34,735 bases of DNA from Bacteroidales bacterium. Lineage in GTDB: Bacteria; Bacteroidota; Bacteroidia; Bacteroidales; WCHB1-69. Location of the stretch: the NCBI GenBank assembly GCA_017525245.1, contig JAFXTE010000001.1, positions 1-34,735 on the forward strand. Direction: 5' to 3'. Both the position numbers and the translations under genes were made by a program. The number at the start of each line of letters is the position of its first letter. Positions within the stretch are counted from its first letter, which is position 1. The notes beneath the pieces are model-generated. The model searched no databases. It was not told the origin of the DNA and worked only from the letters and a program-made list of their open reading frames with translations. Positions 9,041 to 14,650 of the stretch are shown here, piece by piece.

Positions 9041-9059
9041 TTGCGTAAAATTTACACAA
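9041..9059. promoter_or_regulatory. Upstream operator, probably for the Nudix regulator
   Basis: A 19-base palindrome, TTGCGTAAAATTTACACAA, with one mismatched pair relative to the perfect copy at 9091. It lies upstream of the promoter; the centres of the two sites are 50 bases apart. Confidence 0.65.
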
Positions 9060-9085
9060 ATTAAGTTTTTGTATTGAAGAAAATG

Positions 9086-9093
9086 TATTTTTG
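9086..9093 (+). promoter_or_regulatory. -7 box of the Nudix regulator promoter
   Basis: TATTTTTG followed by C. Its last bases overlap the start of the second operator (9091), so a bound repressor would block the promoter. The -33 region is weak. Confidence 0.6.
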
Positions 9094-9109
9094 CGTAAAA
9101 TTTACGCAA
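9091..9109. promoter_or_regulatory. Downstream operator overlapping the promoter
   Basis: Perfect 19-base palindrome, TTGCGTAAAATTTACGCAA, around a central A, spanning the end of the -7 box and the likely transcription start of the Nudix regulator gene. Confidence 0.75.
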
Positions 9110-9142
9110 TTAAAAACAAGACAAAAAAAGGAAGGAATCAGT

Positions 9143-10027
9143 ATGAGTTACACCTACCAATATCCGCATCCTGCCGTGGCCACCGACTGCGTGGTGTTCG
9201 GCTTTGACGGCAAAGAACTACAGATTTTGCTGATAGAACGGGGATTGGAGCCATTCAAAGGAATGTGGGCCTTTCCGGGAGGTTTTATGCGCATCCAAGA
9301 GACAGCGGAGGAATGCGCAAGACGAGAATTGTTAGAAGAGACAGGTTTTCCCATTCAAATTCTCAAACAGTTAGGTGCATTTTCGGGTGTGAATCGTGAC
9401 CCGCGTGAACGTGTGGTCTCTGTTGCGTTTTACGCCTTAGTGCGCCCCTCCGATGTAAAAGGCGGTGATGACGCGCATGACGCACGGTGGTTCGCCCTTG
9501 ACGATGTGCCGCAGCTCGCCTTCGACCACGACTTCATCCTCCGCAAGGCGATGCAACAACTGCGCAAGGACATCTACTTTGAGCCGATAGGGTTCGAACT
9601 GTTGGACAAGGCGTTTACCATGTCGGAGCTGCAGCGGCTCTACGAAGCGATTCTCGGTGTGCGCTTTGACCGCCGCAATTTCGAGAAAAAGATGCTGCAG
9701 ACGGGCATCCTCCAACCCATTGATGAGGAATACGACGCGATTGCGGAATCTCTGTCATGCAACGCAGTCCCTGAGCCAAAGAGGGCTTTTTTCGGGGAAA
9801 GGCGGGAAATGCGCACAAAAAACATTGACGCGCTGTTCGGCACCGAGCCGGAGAGACCTCGCGAAACAGTTATTCTCGCAGACATTGCCCCTTGTGAGTG
9901 TGCTTCTTCTATAGAAGAAAATGAAAACACCAGACGAAAACCCGGGCGGAAAGGACGCAAGTTCTCATTCAACAAGGATAAATACGACCGATTCAAACAG
10001 GATAATAATTTCAGGTTTGAGTTCTAA
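9143..10027 (+). CDS. NrtR-type transcriptional regulator (Nudix domain plus winged helix)
   Basis: 294 residues from the ATG at 9143, preceded by an A/G-rich GGAAGGAA site; an upstream in-frame ATG at 9074 would put the -7 box and operator inside the coding region and is rejected. Residues ~8-140 are a Nudix domain with a complete box, G47-x5-E53-x7-R61-E62-L-L-E65-E66-T-G (GFMRIQE...RELLEETGF). Residues ~145-200 fit the C-terminal winged helix of NrtR regulators (FTMSELQRLYEAILG, FDRRNFEKKML). A basic tail follows (RRKPGRKGRKFSFNKDKYD). NrtR proteins control NAD or sugar-use genes and respond to ADP-ribose or related ligands; some keep an intact box, so hydrolysis is possible. Two palindromes at its promoter suggest autoregulation. 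The ligand here is not known. Confidence 0.9.
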   Translation: MSYTYQYPHPAVATDCVVFGFDGKELQILLIERGLEPFKGMWAFPGGFMRIQETAEECARRELLEETGFPIQILKQLGAFSGVNRDPRERVVSVAFYALVRPSDVKGGDDAHDARWFALDDVPQLAFDHDFILRKAMQQLRKDIYFEPIGFELLDKAFTMSELQRLYEAILGVRFDRRNFEKKMLQTGILQPIDEEYDAIAESLSCNAVPEPKRAFFGERREMRTKNIDALFGTEPERPRETVILADIAPCECASSIEENENTRRKPGRKGRKFSFNKDKYDRFKQDNNFRFEF

Positions 10028-10058
10028 CCGGATATTTTTGACTATAACGTTGAACTAT

Positions 10059-10113
10059 GACTTAGACTTAGACTTAGACTTAAACATTGGCTATTGGCTA
10101 TTAGCTAAAAGCC
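10059..10113. repeat. Compound short tandem array
   Basis: Four GACTTA hexamers (10059-10082) followed by heptads ATTGGCT, ATTGGCT, ATTAGCT, AAAAGCC (10086-10113) in the 124-base gap between the Nudix regulator and the VWA gene. Confidence 0.75.
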
Positions 10114-10151
10114 AACATCTAAATTTTCATCAATTCAAAAAACACAAAGTT

Positions 10152-11330
10152 ATGTTTACAAAAAAATTCAAAAAACAACAGGAAGTCAGAGACAATCAAA
10201 GTGAAAGCACAAACACCGTTTCTCAAGAGAGTGGGCATGGAGACAAACTCAAGGTCTATAACCTCGTCATCCTTGACAAGAGCGGTTCCATGAGCAGCAT
10301 CGCCGAGGCTGCCATCTCCGGTTTTAACGAGACTGTGGGCGGCATCCGCTCCGCACAGGAACGCTATCAGGACTCCCAAGAACATTTCGTGTCGCTCTAC
10401 GTTTTCTGCAATTGCGACAAACACTACATCTATGAAAACGTTCCCGTGAATGAGGTTAAGACGCTGACATCCAGGGAGTACCATCCTTGCTGCTGCACAC
10501 CGCTCTTCGATGCTATGGGACTCTCTCTAAACCAGTTGCTGAACAAAATCCAATCGGACAAGAACGCCACTGCTGCCGTCACGGTCATCACCGACGGTTT
10601 GGAGAACGCTTCCAAAGAGTACTCTGGTTCGGCCATCAAAGCCTTGGTGGACAAGCTGAAGGATGAGGAGGGCTGGAATTTCGCCTACATCGGCACCAAC
10701 CAAGACGTGGATGCGGTAGCCGCCCAAATTTCCATCACCAACACTATGTACTTTGAGGATGATTCGGCTGGCATGAAGACCGCGTGGGCGAACGAACGTA
10801 AAGCTAAAATGCGGATGTACGACCGGATGCAGGAGGATTATGTCTGTTGCAGCGCCGCACCCGAACCGATGAGTGCAAAGGTTATGAAGCTGTTCCGTGC
10901 GAAACGTAACCGCGAGGAGAAGAACTACCGCTCCATGGACGAGTTCCGCAACCGCATCACTCCCAACAACATAACCACGCTGAAAGACAACGAGATTTTT
11001 GTATTCGGAAGCAATTTAGCGGGGATGCACGCAGGCGGCGCGGCGAGAATCGCGGTCGAAAAATTCGGCGCGGTCATGGGACAAGGAGTAGGTTTGCAAG
11101 GACAAAGCTACGCCATCCCCACGATGCAGGGCGGCGTGGAAACCATCGTGCCCTACATCAATGAGTTCATCAAGTTCGCTGACTGTCACCCCGAGCTGAC
11201 CTTCCTGGTGACACGCATCGGCTGCGGCATCGCCGGTTTCTCCGATGAGGAAATCGCCCCGCTGTTCGTGAGAGCAATCAACTTACCCAACGTGCATTTG
11301 CCGAAGGAGTTTTGGAAAGAACTGGTGTAG
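10152..11330 (+). CDS. VWA-domain protein with C-terminal macro-like (A1S_2505-type) domain
   Basis: 392 residues from the ATG at 10152; the frame is open back to 9921, but that part only translates the preceding tandem array. Residues ~35-200 are a von Willebrand A domain with a complete metal site: DKSGS (42-46), the Thr of CCCTPLFDA (116) and ITDGLE (147). Residues ~279-390 form a second domain: FGSNLAGMHAGGAARIA, GQGVGLQGQSYAIPT, LVTRIGCGIAG, ending NVHLPKEFW. This resembles small stand-alone proteins named A1S_2505 family phage non-structural protein and has a macro-domain-like glycine pattern, which suggests binding of an ADP-ribose-like nucleotide. That assignment is from memory. There is no signal peptide, so it is cytoplasmic. 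It lies downstream of the NrtR-type gene with no terminator between them. Cys clusters (CCC at 113-115, CC at 232-233) are unusual. Confidence 0.8.
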   Translation: MFTKKFKKQQEVRDNQSESTNTVSQESGHGDKLKVYNLVILDKSGSMSSIAEAAISGFNETVGGIRSAQERYQDSQEHFVSLYVFCNCDKHYIYENVPVNEVKTLTSREYHPCCCTPLFDAMGLSLNQLLNKIQSDKNATAAVTVITDGLENASKEYSGSAIKALVDKLKDEEGWNFAYIGTNQDVDAVAAQISITNTMYFEDDSAGMKTAWANERKAKMRMYDRMQEDYVCCSAAPEPMSAKVMKLFRAKRNREEKNYRSMDEFRNRITPNNITTLKDNEIFVFGSNLAGMHAGGAARIAVEKFGAVMGQGVGLQGQSYAIPTMQGGVETIVPYINEFIKFADCHPELTFLVTRIGCGIAGFSDEEIAPLFVRAINLPNVHLPKEFWKELV

Positions 11331-12295: not shown

Positions 12296-14650
12296 TTAAT
12301 TCCGGACAATTTTCATTGTTTTCACCACATTCCCGCCTGCTACAGTCTTGATGAAATATACACCAGGGGCGAAACGCGACAAATCAATTTGAGTAGGTCC
12401 ATCATTATTCATCACAATAACGTTCAATAATTTACCGTATGCGTCGAACAAAAAAATTTCCGCCGCCTCTATCTGTACATTGTTCTTGCTACATAGTACA
12501 TAGGCAACACTATTTGTCGGGTTAGGATAAACCTTGAAACAGAAACCGTCATGGTCTTCTATAGCAACGTGGCCGTCAACGATAATAACATCTGAAGTCG
12601 GTCCAAAAAAACCTTCATAGTTTTCAGCACTACCTGAAGGGACGTATATAGTCAGGCCGTTTGAAGCCGGAAATGTGGAATAGAAACATCCATCCAAAGA
12701 AGGAGGCGTCGCACCATCAAATGTCACAGAGGTCAGGTTGCTACAGTCAGAGAAAGCGAAAATGCCAATGGATGTGACGGAACTGGGAATTGTCACGGAG
12801 GTCAAGCCGGTGCAGCCAGAAAAGGCATACTCTCCAATGGACACGACCGTATTGGGAATGACTGTTGTCTTACAACCTGTAATCAACGTATTGTCAGCAG
12901 TTCGGATAATGGCATTGCAATTGTCGCGACTGTCATATACGGGATTACCTGACTCAACAACAATGGAGGTCAACCCTGTGCAACCATTGAACACCCTACT
13001 TCCTATAGATGTAACGGAGCTGGGAATTGTAATGGAAGTAAGGCTTGTGCAACCATTGAAAGCCTGAAGTCCTATGGACGTGACAGAGTTGGGGATTGTA
13101 ACGGAAACCAAACCCGTACAACCATCGAAAACACCAATTCCTATGGATGTGATAGAATTTGGAATGGTCACGGAAGTAAGACCTGTGCAACCTCTGAAAG
13201 CGTAATTCTCAATAACCGTGACAGAATTGGGAATAGTCACGGAAATCAAGCCTGTGCAACCAGAAAAACCTCCAATGGTAGTGACAGAATTGGGGATAGT
13301 AATAGAAGTCAAGCCTGTGCAACCAGAGAAACCTCCAACAGACGTGACCGTATTAGGAATGACTGTTGCCTGACAACCAGTAATCAGCGCATTGTCGGCA
13401 GTTCGTATAATAGCATTGCAATTGTCGCGGCTGTCATATACAGGATTGCCTATCTCTACAACAATGGAGGATAGCCCAGAGCAGCCGTTGAAAGCATCAG
13501 TTCCAATGGATGTAACTGAACTGGGGATTGTTAAGGAGGACAGACTGGTGCAACCATAGAAAGCGGAATTGCCAATGGATGTAACAGAATTGGGGATTGT
13601 CACAGAAGAAAGGCCTGTGCAGTTTCTGAAAGCGTAACTTCCAATAGACACAATGGAAATGGGAATAGTCACGGAGGTCAGACCAGTAAAACCATCAAAA
13701 GCATAATTATCAATGGAAGTGACAGTATTAGGGATGACTGTTGACTGACTACCTTTAATCAATGTGTTATCAGCTGTTAGGATAATGGAATTGCAATTGT
13801 CACGGCTATCATATACGGAATTCCCTGTTTCAACAACAATGGAAACCAGCTCTGTACAACCAAAGAATGCGTAACTTCCAATGGACACAACAGAAGATGG
13901 AATGGTCACGGAGGTCAGACCTGTACAATAATAGAAAGCGAAATCTCCAACAGATGTGACAGAATTGGGGATGACCGTTGCCCGACAACCTACAATTAAC
14001 GTATTGTCAGCTGTTCGGATAACGGCGTTGCAATTGCCGCGACGATTATTGTCAAGACTATTGTATATGGGATTATCTGTTGCCACAACAATGGAAGTCA
14101 AACTCGGGCAATTCGAGAAAGCGCCATTATCAATGAACGTGACAGAACTGGGGATTGTTATGGATGTCAGACTTGCACAACCATAGAAAGCGTTCATCCC
14201 AATGGAGGTAACAGAATTGGGAATTGTTATGGAGGTCAAACTGATGCAATTAAAAAAAGCGAAATCTCCAACAGATATGACAGAATTGGGGATTGTTACG
14301 GAAGTCAGACTGCTGTCACGACTAAAAACACTATTTCCGATGGACGTGACAGAATTGGGAATAATCACAGATGTAAGTTCAGGGGCATCATTAAAAGCTT
14401 GGTTCCCTATTTGTGTGACCGAATAGGTGACCCCATCATGCTCTACATCGTGTGGAATTTCCATTTCTCCGGTCAACCGTTCATGGTCACATTCCCCGCC
14501 ATGAACGACTGCCACGGAACTATTTGAAAGGATTTGAAAATACAACAGCTGGCCAGTAACACAGGTGTCGTAGAAATCATACCCAGCCTGTGCTTTTGCA
14601 CTGGATACAAAGGCCGTAAACACCAGAACTGCAATAATAATCTTTTTCAT
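12296..14650 (-). CDS. BspA-like leucine-rich-repeat surface protein with T9SS tail
   Basis: 784 residues. Signal peptide 1-20 (ends SSAKAQ). Residues ~65-650 are ~23-residue LRR_5 repeats of the BspA type (FxGCTGLTSVTIPNSVTSIG). Four times the run is interrupted by a ~45-residue module (VYDSRDNCNAIIRTADNTLI then TVIPNTVTSIG). Two repeats are shortened to GGFSGCTGL. Residues ~700-784 are a T9SS sorting tail (FKVYPNPTNS, DLSRFAPGVYFIKTV, ending KTMKIVRN). BspA proteins act as surface adhesins that bind host or bacterial partners, which is the likely role here. The nearly identical repeats (e.g. ACAGAATTGGGGATTGT on the + strand) make the gene prone to recombination and assembly error. Confidence 0.95.
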   Translation of the reverse strand: MKKIIIAVLVFTAFVSSAKAQAGYDFYDTCVTGQLLYFQILSNSSVAVVHGGECDHERLTGEMEIPHDVEHDGVTYSVTQIGNQAFNDAPELTSVIIPNSVTSIGNSVFSRDSSLTSVTIPNSVISVGDFAFFNCISLTSITIPNSVTSIGMNAFYGCASLTSITIPSSVTFIDNGAFSNCPSLTSIVVATDNPIYNSLDNNRRGNCNAVIRTADNTLIVGCRATVIPNSVTSVGDFAFYYCTGLTSVTIPSSVVSIGSYAFFGCTELVSIVVETGNSVYDSRDNCNSIILTADNTLIKGSQSTVIPNTVTSIDNYAFDGFTGLTSVTIPISIVSIGSYAFRNCTGLSSVTIPNSVTSIGNSAFYGCTSLSSLTIPSSVTSIGTDAFNGCSGLSSIVVEIGNPVYDSRDNCNAIIRTADNALITGCQATVIPNTVTSVGGFSGCTGLTSITIPNSVTTIGGFSGCTGLISVTIPNSVTVIENYAFRGCTGLTSVTIPNSITSIGIGVFDGCTGLVSVTIPNSVTSIGLQAFNGCTSLTSITIPSSVTSIGSRVFNGCTGLTSIVVESGNPVYDSRDNCNAIIRTADNTLITGCKTTVIPNTVVSIGEYAFSGCTGLTSVTIPSSVTSIGIFAFSDCSNLTSVTFDGATPPSLDGCFYSTFPASNGLTIYVPSGSAENYEGFFGPTSDVIIVDGHVAIEDHDGFCFKVYPNPTNSVAYVLCSKNNVQIEAAEIFLFDAYGKLLNVIVMNNDGPTQIDLSRFAPGVYFIKTVAGGNVVKTMKIVRN

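Follow-up and report, generated by a model that had tools for sequence, protein, structure and literature searches.

The closest described counterparts of the locus studied here are the predicted host systems against viral ADP-ribosylation of Iyer et al. 2022, which are centred on an ADP-ribosylglycohydrolase (PMC9503650). In the passages of that paper devoted to them, these systems bring together repressors of the Nudix- or WYL-HTH type with vWA chaperones and, in some cases, Macro domains, and a little over half of them include a coupled phosphatase. A second point of reference is the NrtR family of regulators, in which an N-terminal Nudix domain is followed by a C-terminal NrtR winged helix. 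According to the parts of PMC4666351 that treat these proteins, R41 and R98 of SoNrtR are ADP-ribose contacts, whereas AraR of B. thetaiotaomicron binds L-arabinose, carries Gly where SoNrtR has R98 and has lost the Nudix catalytic residues; the Nudix box is impaired in AraR as well as in the NrtR regulators of NAD metabolism, and control of NAD genes is, as AraR illustrates, not universal in the family. The macro domains of TARG1 and DarG are also among the closest known systems, as is the A1S_2505 family of phage non-structural proteins (NF049995, PHROG 2072), whose family models name no function.

The DNA analysed here, referred to as the window, is a 34.7 kb stretch on contig C95 of a Bacteroidales genome (111 contigs, 94% complete, 6% contamination). 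Two genes on its + strand occupy positions 9143-11330, with 124 bp between them, and encode an NrtR-type Nudix/winged-helix regulator of 294 aa (9143-10027) and a VWA-macro fusion protein of 392 aa (10152-11330). With the systems of Iyer et al. the locus shares a Nudix-HTH repressor, a vWA protein and Macro domains in one neighbourhood, as well as the predicted release by ADP-ribose. An earlier note on this DNA had taken the pairing to be unfamiliar; it is less so than supposed there, since Nudix-HTH, vWA and Macro had already been grouped around ADP-ribosylglycohydrolase (PMC9503650, in the passages cited above). The locus differs in that its core is the VWA-macro fusion, in that no ADP-ribosylglycohydrolase is linked to it on its contig, and in that its macro domain belongs to a divergent family. 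The text of section 3.8 of PMC9503650 describes no VWA-macro fusion, and we found no description of one in searches of open-licence papers. We read the locus, with a probability of roughly 0.6, as a dedicated, autoregulated two-gene operon of an ADP-ribose network. The adjacency of the two genes and its conservation, the overlap of operator and -7 element, the confinement of the operators to the locus within its own genome and the domain make-up of the proteins are established at the level of sequence.

Gene content and conservation of the locus

Besides the regulator and the fusion, five other window proteins were scanned against Pfam; they matched DUF5686, a Na/Pi cotransporter, a Cys/Met PLP enzyme and Fib_succ_major, and one had no match above the cut-off. 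The scan of all seven recognised no ADP-ribosylating enzyme and no phosphatase of the kinds named in the cited passages of PMC9503650. The window also encodes, at 12296-14650 on the - strand, a large BspA-type leucine-rich repeat protein (Pfam LRR_5, six stretches) with a C-terminal Por_Secre_tail sorting domain.

Conservation of the gene pair was assessed in two sets of loci. The first was drawn from 104 genomes of the family, 70 of which match the fusion to some extent, in most cases over one half of it. The 15 best loci (L001-L015) combine VWA and macro-like parts, three of them imperfectly: one TAG separates the parts in L003, the contig of L008 ends within the macro-like part, and L015 breaks off ahead of that part. 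A Nudix regulator gene was present in the fetched stretch of all 15, upstream in 14 and downstream in one (L014). The second set comprises 52 loci (L034-L085), six of which coincide with places of the first set, and its titled relatives are mostly Bacteroidales from animal guts. The fusion lies in one frame at 50 of these loci, with a Nudix gene in the fetched stretch of 32, less than 400 bp away in 27. Grouped by identity, a linked Nudix gene was found for 24 of the 25 fusions at 53% identity or more, for 8 of the 25 at 41-47%, and at none of 28 stand-alone-VWA loci; L081 and L083 have no fused frame but carry a Nudix gene plus a VWA gene. Of the 18 genomes whose fused locus has no Nudix gene in the fetched stretch, 14 carry a P0002-like gene at another position, with at least 59% identity in 12 of these genomes, and the other four lack one at E 1e-10. 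The co-occurrence proposed as a check in the earlier note is thus seen in 15/15 of the nearest loci and 32/50 of the fused loci of the second set, and we reject a chance neighbourhood for the gene pair on the strength of its conservation across both sets.

When the genes of L034-L113 were clustered, just two clusters, the fusion/VWA family at 77 loci and the Nudix gene at 34, occurred at more than 14 loci. No conserved third gene emerged, the next cluster being present in 14 loci, of which 12 have a stand-alone VWA, with no Pfam match in the two representatives scanned; another cluster beside stand-alone VWA genes carries WG repeats.

The regulator

Pfam recognises both halves of the regulator, NUDIX (PF00293) at 1.1e-23 and the NrtR winged-helix domain (PF21906, residues 150-196, window 9590-9730, + strand) at 6.9e-18. 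The solved chains nearest to it by sequence are B. thetaiotaomicron AraR (5bs6), followed by 2fml and 3gz5 (SoNrtR), and the alignments with SoNrtR and AraR span both domains, so that the regulator has the architecture of the NrtR family. An intact Nudix box, as reported in the earlier note for a Nudix-winged-helix protein, is indeed present at residues 47-69 (9281-9349, + strand). Its catalytic core, R61, E62, E65 and E66, is kept in 54/54 homologous ORFs, a number in which some places are counted repeatedly (46 are distinct); the strict box is kept in 36 of the 54, and the remainder deviate at the last glycine or through insertions. Because the known NrtR and AraR boxes are impaired, a usual though non-defining trait of the family, the preserved box makes the window regulator unusual, and it may be an active hydrolase, judging by its residues. 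The arginines R33 and R88, each present in 54/54 ORFs, align with R41 and R98 of SoNrtR, a correspondence that uses an inferred 3-residue offset in the numbering of chain 3gz5.

The winged helix is followed by a long, poorly conserved stretch (residues about 200-294, window 9740-10027) that leads to a conserved basic C-terminal tail and distinguishes the window regulator from SoNrtR and BtAraR. The same genome has a second NrtR-like gene (L179, G000:C107:9090-9677) with 52% identity to the window regulator; genes like it are common in the genus, and neither the palindrome described below nor an ADP-ribose gene was recognised in its fetched surroundings.

Since the best solved relative by sequence is the arabinose-binding AraR, and since operators vary widely among NrtR groups and their ligands differ (PMC4666351, in the parts cited above), one could also speculate that the regulator is a repressor of the AraR/XylR type that senses a sugar or some other ligand, in which case the VWA-macro protein would answer to a signal other than ADP-ribose. 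The catalytic residues and the equivalent of R98, lost in AraR, are nevertheless kept here in 54/54 ORFs, the Pfam scan of the seven window proteins found no sugar gene, near-exact operators mark a single other place in 104 genomes, and enzymes of ADP-ribose metabolism are among the fusion partners of the macro-like domain (see below). We therefore consider a sugar sensor quite improbable and retain the reading of an ADP-ribose-linked regulator.

Operator and promoter

Upstream of the regulator gene the palindrome TTGCGTAAANTTTACGCAA occurs twice, 50 bp apart, as a distal copy with one mismatch (TTGCGTAAAATTTACACAA, 9041-9059) and an exact promoter-proximal copy (TTGCGTAAAATTTACGCAA, 9091-9109). 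The proximal copy is overlapped by a candidate Bacteroidota -7 promoter element (TATTTTTG, 9086-9093, + strand) of the form TAnnTTTG, which the pertinent part of PMC7366714 gives as the -7 consensus of the Bacteroidota primary sigma factor. A palindromic operator is a feature common to SoNrtR, BtAraR and the window regulator, and the tandem sites resemble those in the AraR figure legend of PMC4666351.

The same arrangement recurs in relatives. At up to 4 mismatches, at least one site was found in 15/15 of L001-L015, with two or more in 14/15, and two sites were found at L020, which has Nudix plus macro-like genes and no VWA; the remaining 14 loci of the first set have no site at this threshold. 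Counted over the 49 distinct loci having any site, which are related to one another so that the counts are not independent, 24 have a second site, 50-55 bp further upstream than the promoter-proximal one, and in 39 a TAnnTTTG starting 0-8 bases upstream overlaps the proximal site, at exactly -5 in 36. The 39 consist of 36 of 40 chosen loci and 3 of the 9 other distinct loci with any site, these nine being mostly distant relatives with weak sites, two of which (in L078 and L102) are probably due to chance. Among the 24 loci that have a distal site as well, the element is present there in only 2. This overlap of the -7 element with the proximal operator fits the geometry of a repressor that would hide the promoter. 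Control from a distance is suggested, again from the sites themselves, by five loci without a linked regulator that keep an operator site ahead of the fusion gene (L059, L060, L062, L069 and L074); the other 13 of the 18 unlinked-fusion loci have no recognisable operator there.

The distribution of the sites across genomes bears on how far the regulator reaches. At up to 1 mismatch, 15 sites were found in 12 of the 104 family genomes, compared with 0 for a reversed-pattern control, and 14 of the 15 are at the module, counting G061, where the regulator is decayed, and G081, which has the regulator and a macro remnant only; the sole near-exact site elsewhere is in G049. In the window's own genome, at up to 2 mismatches, the one further match falls inside a 3-dehydroquinate synthase gene. 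In contrast to SoNrtR and BtAraR, the predicted regulon, by operator scan of its own genome and the 104 family genomes, is thus the regulator's own operon, and the palindrome was rejected as the mark of a wider NAD regulon by the same scans. Characterised NrtR proteins do govern NAD genes (PMC4666351, parts cited above), which would favour a classical regulator of NAD homeostasis that sits beside the fusion gene by chance. Given that the module holds almost all near-exact sites in the family, that the only other match in the genome is the one just described, and that this genome has a separate NrtR-like gene on C107, we regard such housekeeping control as very improbable and prefer a regulator dedicated to its own operon.

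The VWA-macro fusion protein

The fusion protein has no Pfam match at 0.1; it matches PHROG 7371 over residues 35-217 and PHROG 2072 over residues 264-390. Its full-length AlphaFold2 model reaches pLDDT 88.8 and pTM 0.79. The first of its two domains (residues about 32-203, window 10245-10760, + strand) has the fold of VWA/I domains by Foldseek (E 4.7e-07) and the motif DxSxS...T...D of a MIDAS, whose residues D42, S44, S46, T116 and D148 are invariant in 37/37 sequences, so that the complete metal site described in the earlier note is upheld. Four cysteines of the VWA domain (residues 86, 88, 113 and 114, window 10407-10415 and 10488-10493) do not vary among the 12 fusions aligned first, but in the wider set their columns are neither invariant nor nearly so; within the close clade they may form a metal or redox site.

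The second domain is a compact, divergent macro domain of the A1S_2505 / PHROG 2072 family (residues 260-392, window 10929-11327, + strand). Membership of that family follows from the match to NF049995 over residues 282-387 (E 5.4e-43, 145.7 bits against a cut-off of 45), and the structure prediction gives the macro fold that the earlier note had proposed to look for. A simple assignment to the Macro family was considered and is contradicted by profile-profile comparison: hhalign against canonical Macro proteins of the same bacterial family gave a probability of 0.4%, from shallow profiles (Neff 2.7 and 1.9). As the domain also lacks a Pfam Macro match and a sequence match to any PDB macro structure, we call it macro-fold, not a proven member of the Macro family, and in view of this missing sequence relation the predicted fold does not prove ADP-ribose binding. 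Macro catalysis of the TARG1 type uses a lysine. Because no lysine is invariant across an alignment of 40 macro sequences, such catalysis by this domain looks unlikely from its sequence.

The A1S_2505 / PHROG 2072 family is common in phages, with 450 of 50,697 records; the window domain differs from the phage proteins in being fused to a VWA domain within a bacterial operon. Two of the 40 phage records listed, Milano and Possum, already bear the label "macro domain-containing", so the macro reading is not wholly new.

Links to ADP-ribose in relatives

The fusions and neighbours of the two proteins in other genomes point towards ADP-ribose. The macro-like domain is fused to a Nudix domain, without a winged helix by Pfam, in L021, L030, L136 and L137; in L135 its partner is a partial microbial PARG domain. 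In two relatives, and in this they depart from the systems of Iyer et al., an ADP-ribosylglycohydrolase fused to the same macro-like domain accompanies the VWA-macro gene, lying between it and the regulator in L082 and downstream of it in L049. P0002-like regulators in other genomes adjoin an ADP-ribosylglycohydrolase in L145, L146 and L147 and a SIR2 gene in L155, and a SIR2 gene is one gene away in L174, hinting, from gene order, that some of these regulators may control a sirtuin; for 8 of the 12 closest unlinked regulators (L145-L156), neither an ADP-ribosylglycohydrolase nor SIR2 was recognised within about 1.5 kb on either side. The ADP-ribose-linked module suggested in the earlier note is backed by the fusions to Nudix, ADP-ribosylglycohydrolase and PARG and by the conserved contact arginines, and is weakened where the macro domain shows no sequence-profile relation to Macro. 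Neither of the outcomes that the note had named as refuting it, a C-terminal domain of another fold or a gene pair missing from relatives, was observed, so that its interpretation is supported in part.

Some further observations were made in the course of this survey. The P0002-like regulators of L155 and L174 have operator-like palindromes. On the plasmid of Prevotella sp. E2-28 (L170), a stretch of about 3.2 kb contains a gene of the Sir2 family and a vWA gene, alongside a Nudix fragment ORF and a frame that fuses a sigma-region-4-like HTH, scoring below the Pfam cut-off, with the macro-like domain. A comparable HTH/macro-like frame occurs in L127, together with a vWA ORF and an ADP-ribosylglycohydrolase-like ORF. 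The ADP-ribosylglycohydrolase of the window's own genome (L180, G000:C96:35908-36621) shares 63% identity with the glycohydrolase part of the L082 fusion, and its gene adjoins an RtcB RNA-ligase gene.

This glycohydrolase is the genome's single PF03747 match, and as it lies on C96, a different contig from the window's C95, we do not file the operon as a member of the systems of Iyer et al.; by analogy with them, we take it to be a Bacteroidales variant that is built on the VWA-macro fusion and works in a similar way. A more specific proposal would make it an anti-phage module that senses ADP-ribosylation or ADP-ribose signals made by phage and protects the cell, as was put forward for the ADP-ribosylglycohydrolase-centred systems. 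Those predicted systems count Nudix-HTH regulators, vWA and Macro domains among their listed components (PMC9503650, passages cited above), the macro-like family is frequent enough in phages that it may serve host and phage alike, and the module is patchily distributed, with decayed copies in G061 and G081. The fusion has no PADLOC match, however, the only PADLOC match of the regulator (PDC-S07, 9.8e-11) covers the Nudix domain, and the Pfam scan of the other five window proteins shows no defence family. On balance a dedicated anti-phage role seems unlikely, though less so than sugar sensing, and we keep to the broader reading of an ADP-ribose operon.

Discussion

If the locus is an autoregulated operon of an ADP-ribose network, a plausible mechanism can be outlined. 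The Nudix-winged-helix protein would act as a repressor that covers its own promoter. A rise in ADP-ribose or a related NAD-derived ligand would lead to binding in the Nudix pocket and to release of the DNA, so that the regulator and the VWA-macro protein would be made together, and the retained catalytic residues make it probable that the regulator cleaves the ligand as well, by which the switch would reset itself. The VWA domain would grip a protein partner through its metal site, and the macro domain would bind, and may remove, ADP-ribosyl groups on macromolecules, or would bind a soluble ADP-ribose derivative. The module as a whole would then sense and handle unwanted ADP-ribosylation or ADP-ribose release, for which a phage, a rival, a toxin-antitoxin system and a sirtuin are candidate sources.

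A bolder version of this scheme, which we offer tentatively and judge to be well short of even odds, is a self-resetting ADP-ribose switch in which sensor, repressor and signal hydrolase are united in one protein that controls a single-chain VWA-macro adaptor for ADP-ribosylated targets. The macro-like domain would in that case serve as an exchangeable ADP-ribose "address tag" on erasers (ADP-ribosylglycohydrolase, PARG and Nudix) and direct each of these enzymes to one common substrate.

The analysis gives the A1S_2505 / PHROG 2072 family, which is widespread in phages and bacteria and has had no named function, a structural identity in the form of a predicted fold, and the fusion partners give it a likely biochemical theme. 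The operon offers a compact and testable entry to the bacterial answer to ADP-ribosylation: it has two proteins, its operator is mapped and overlaps the promoter, and what should bind to what is clearly predicted.
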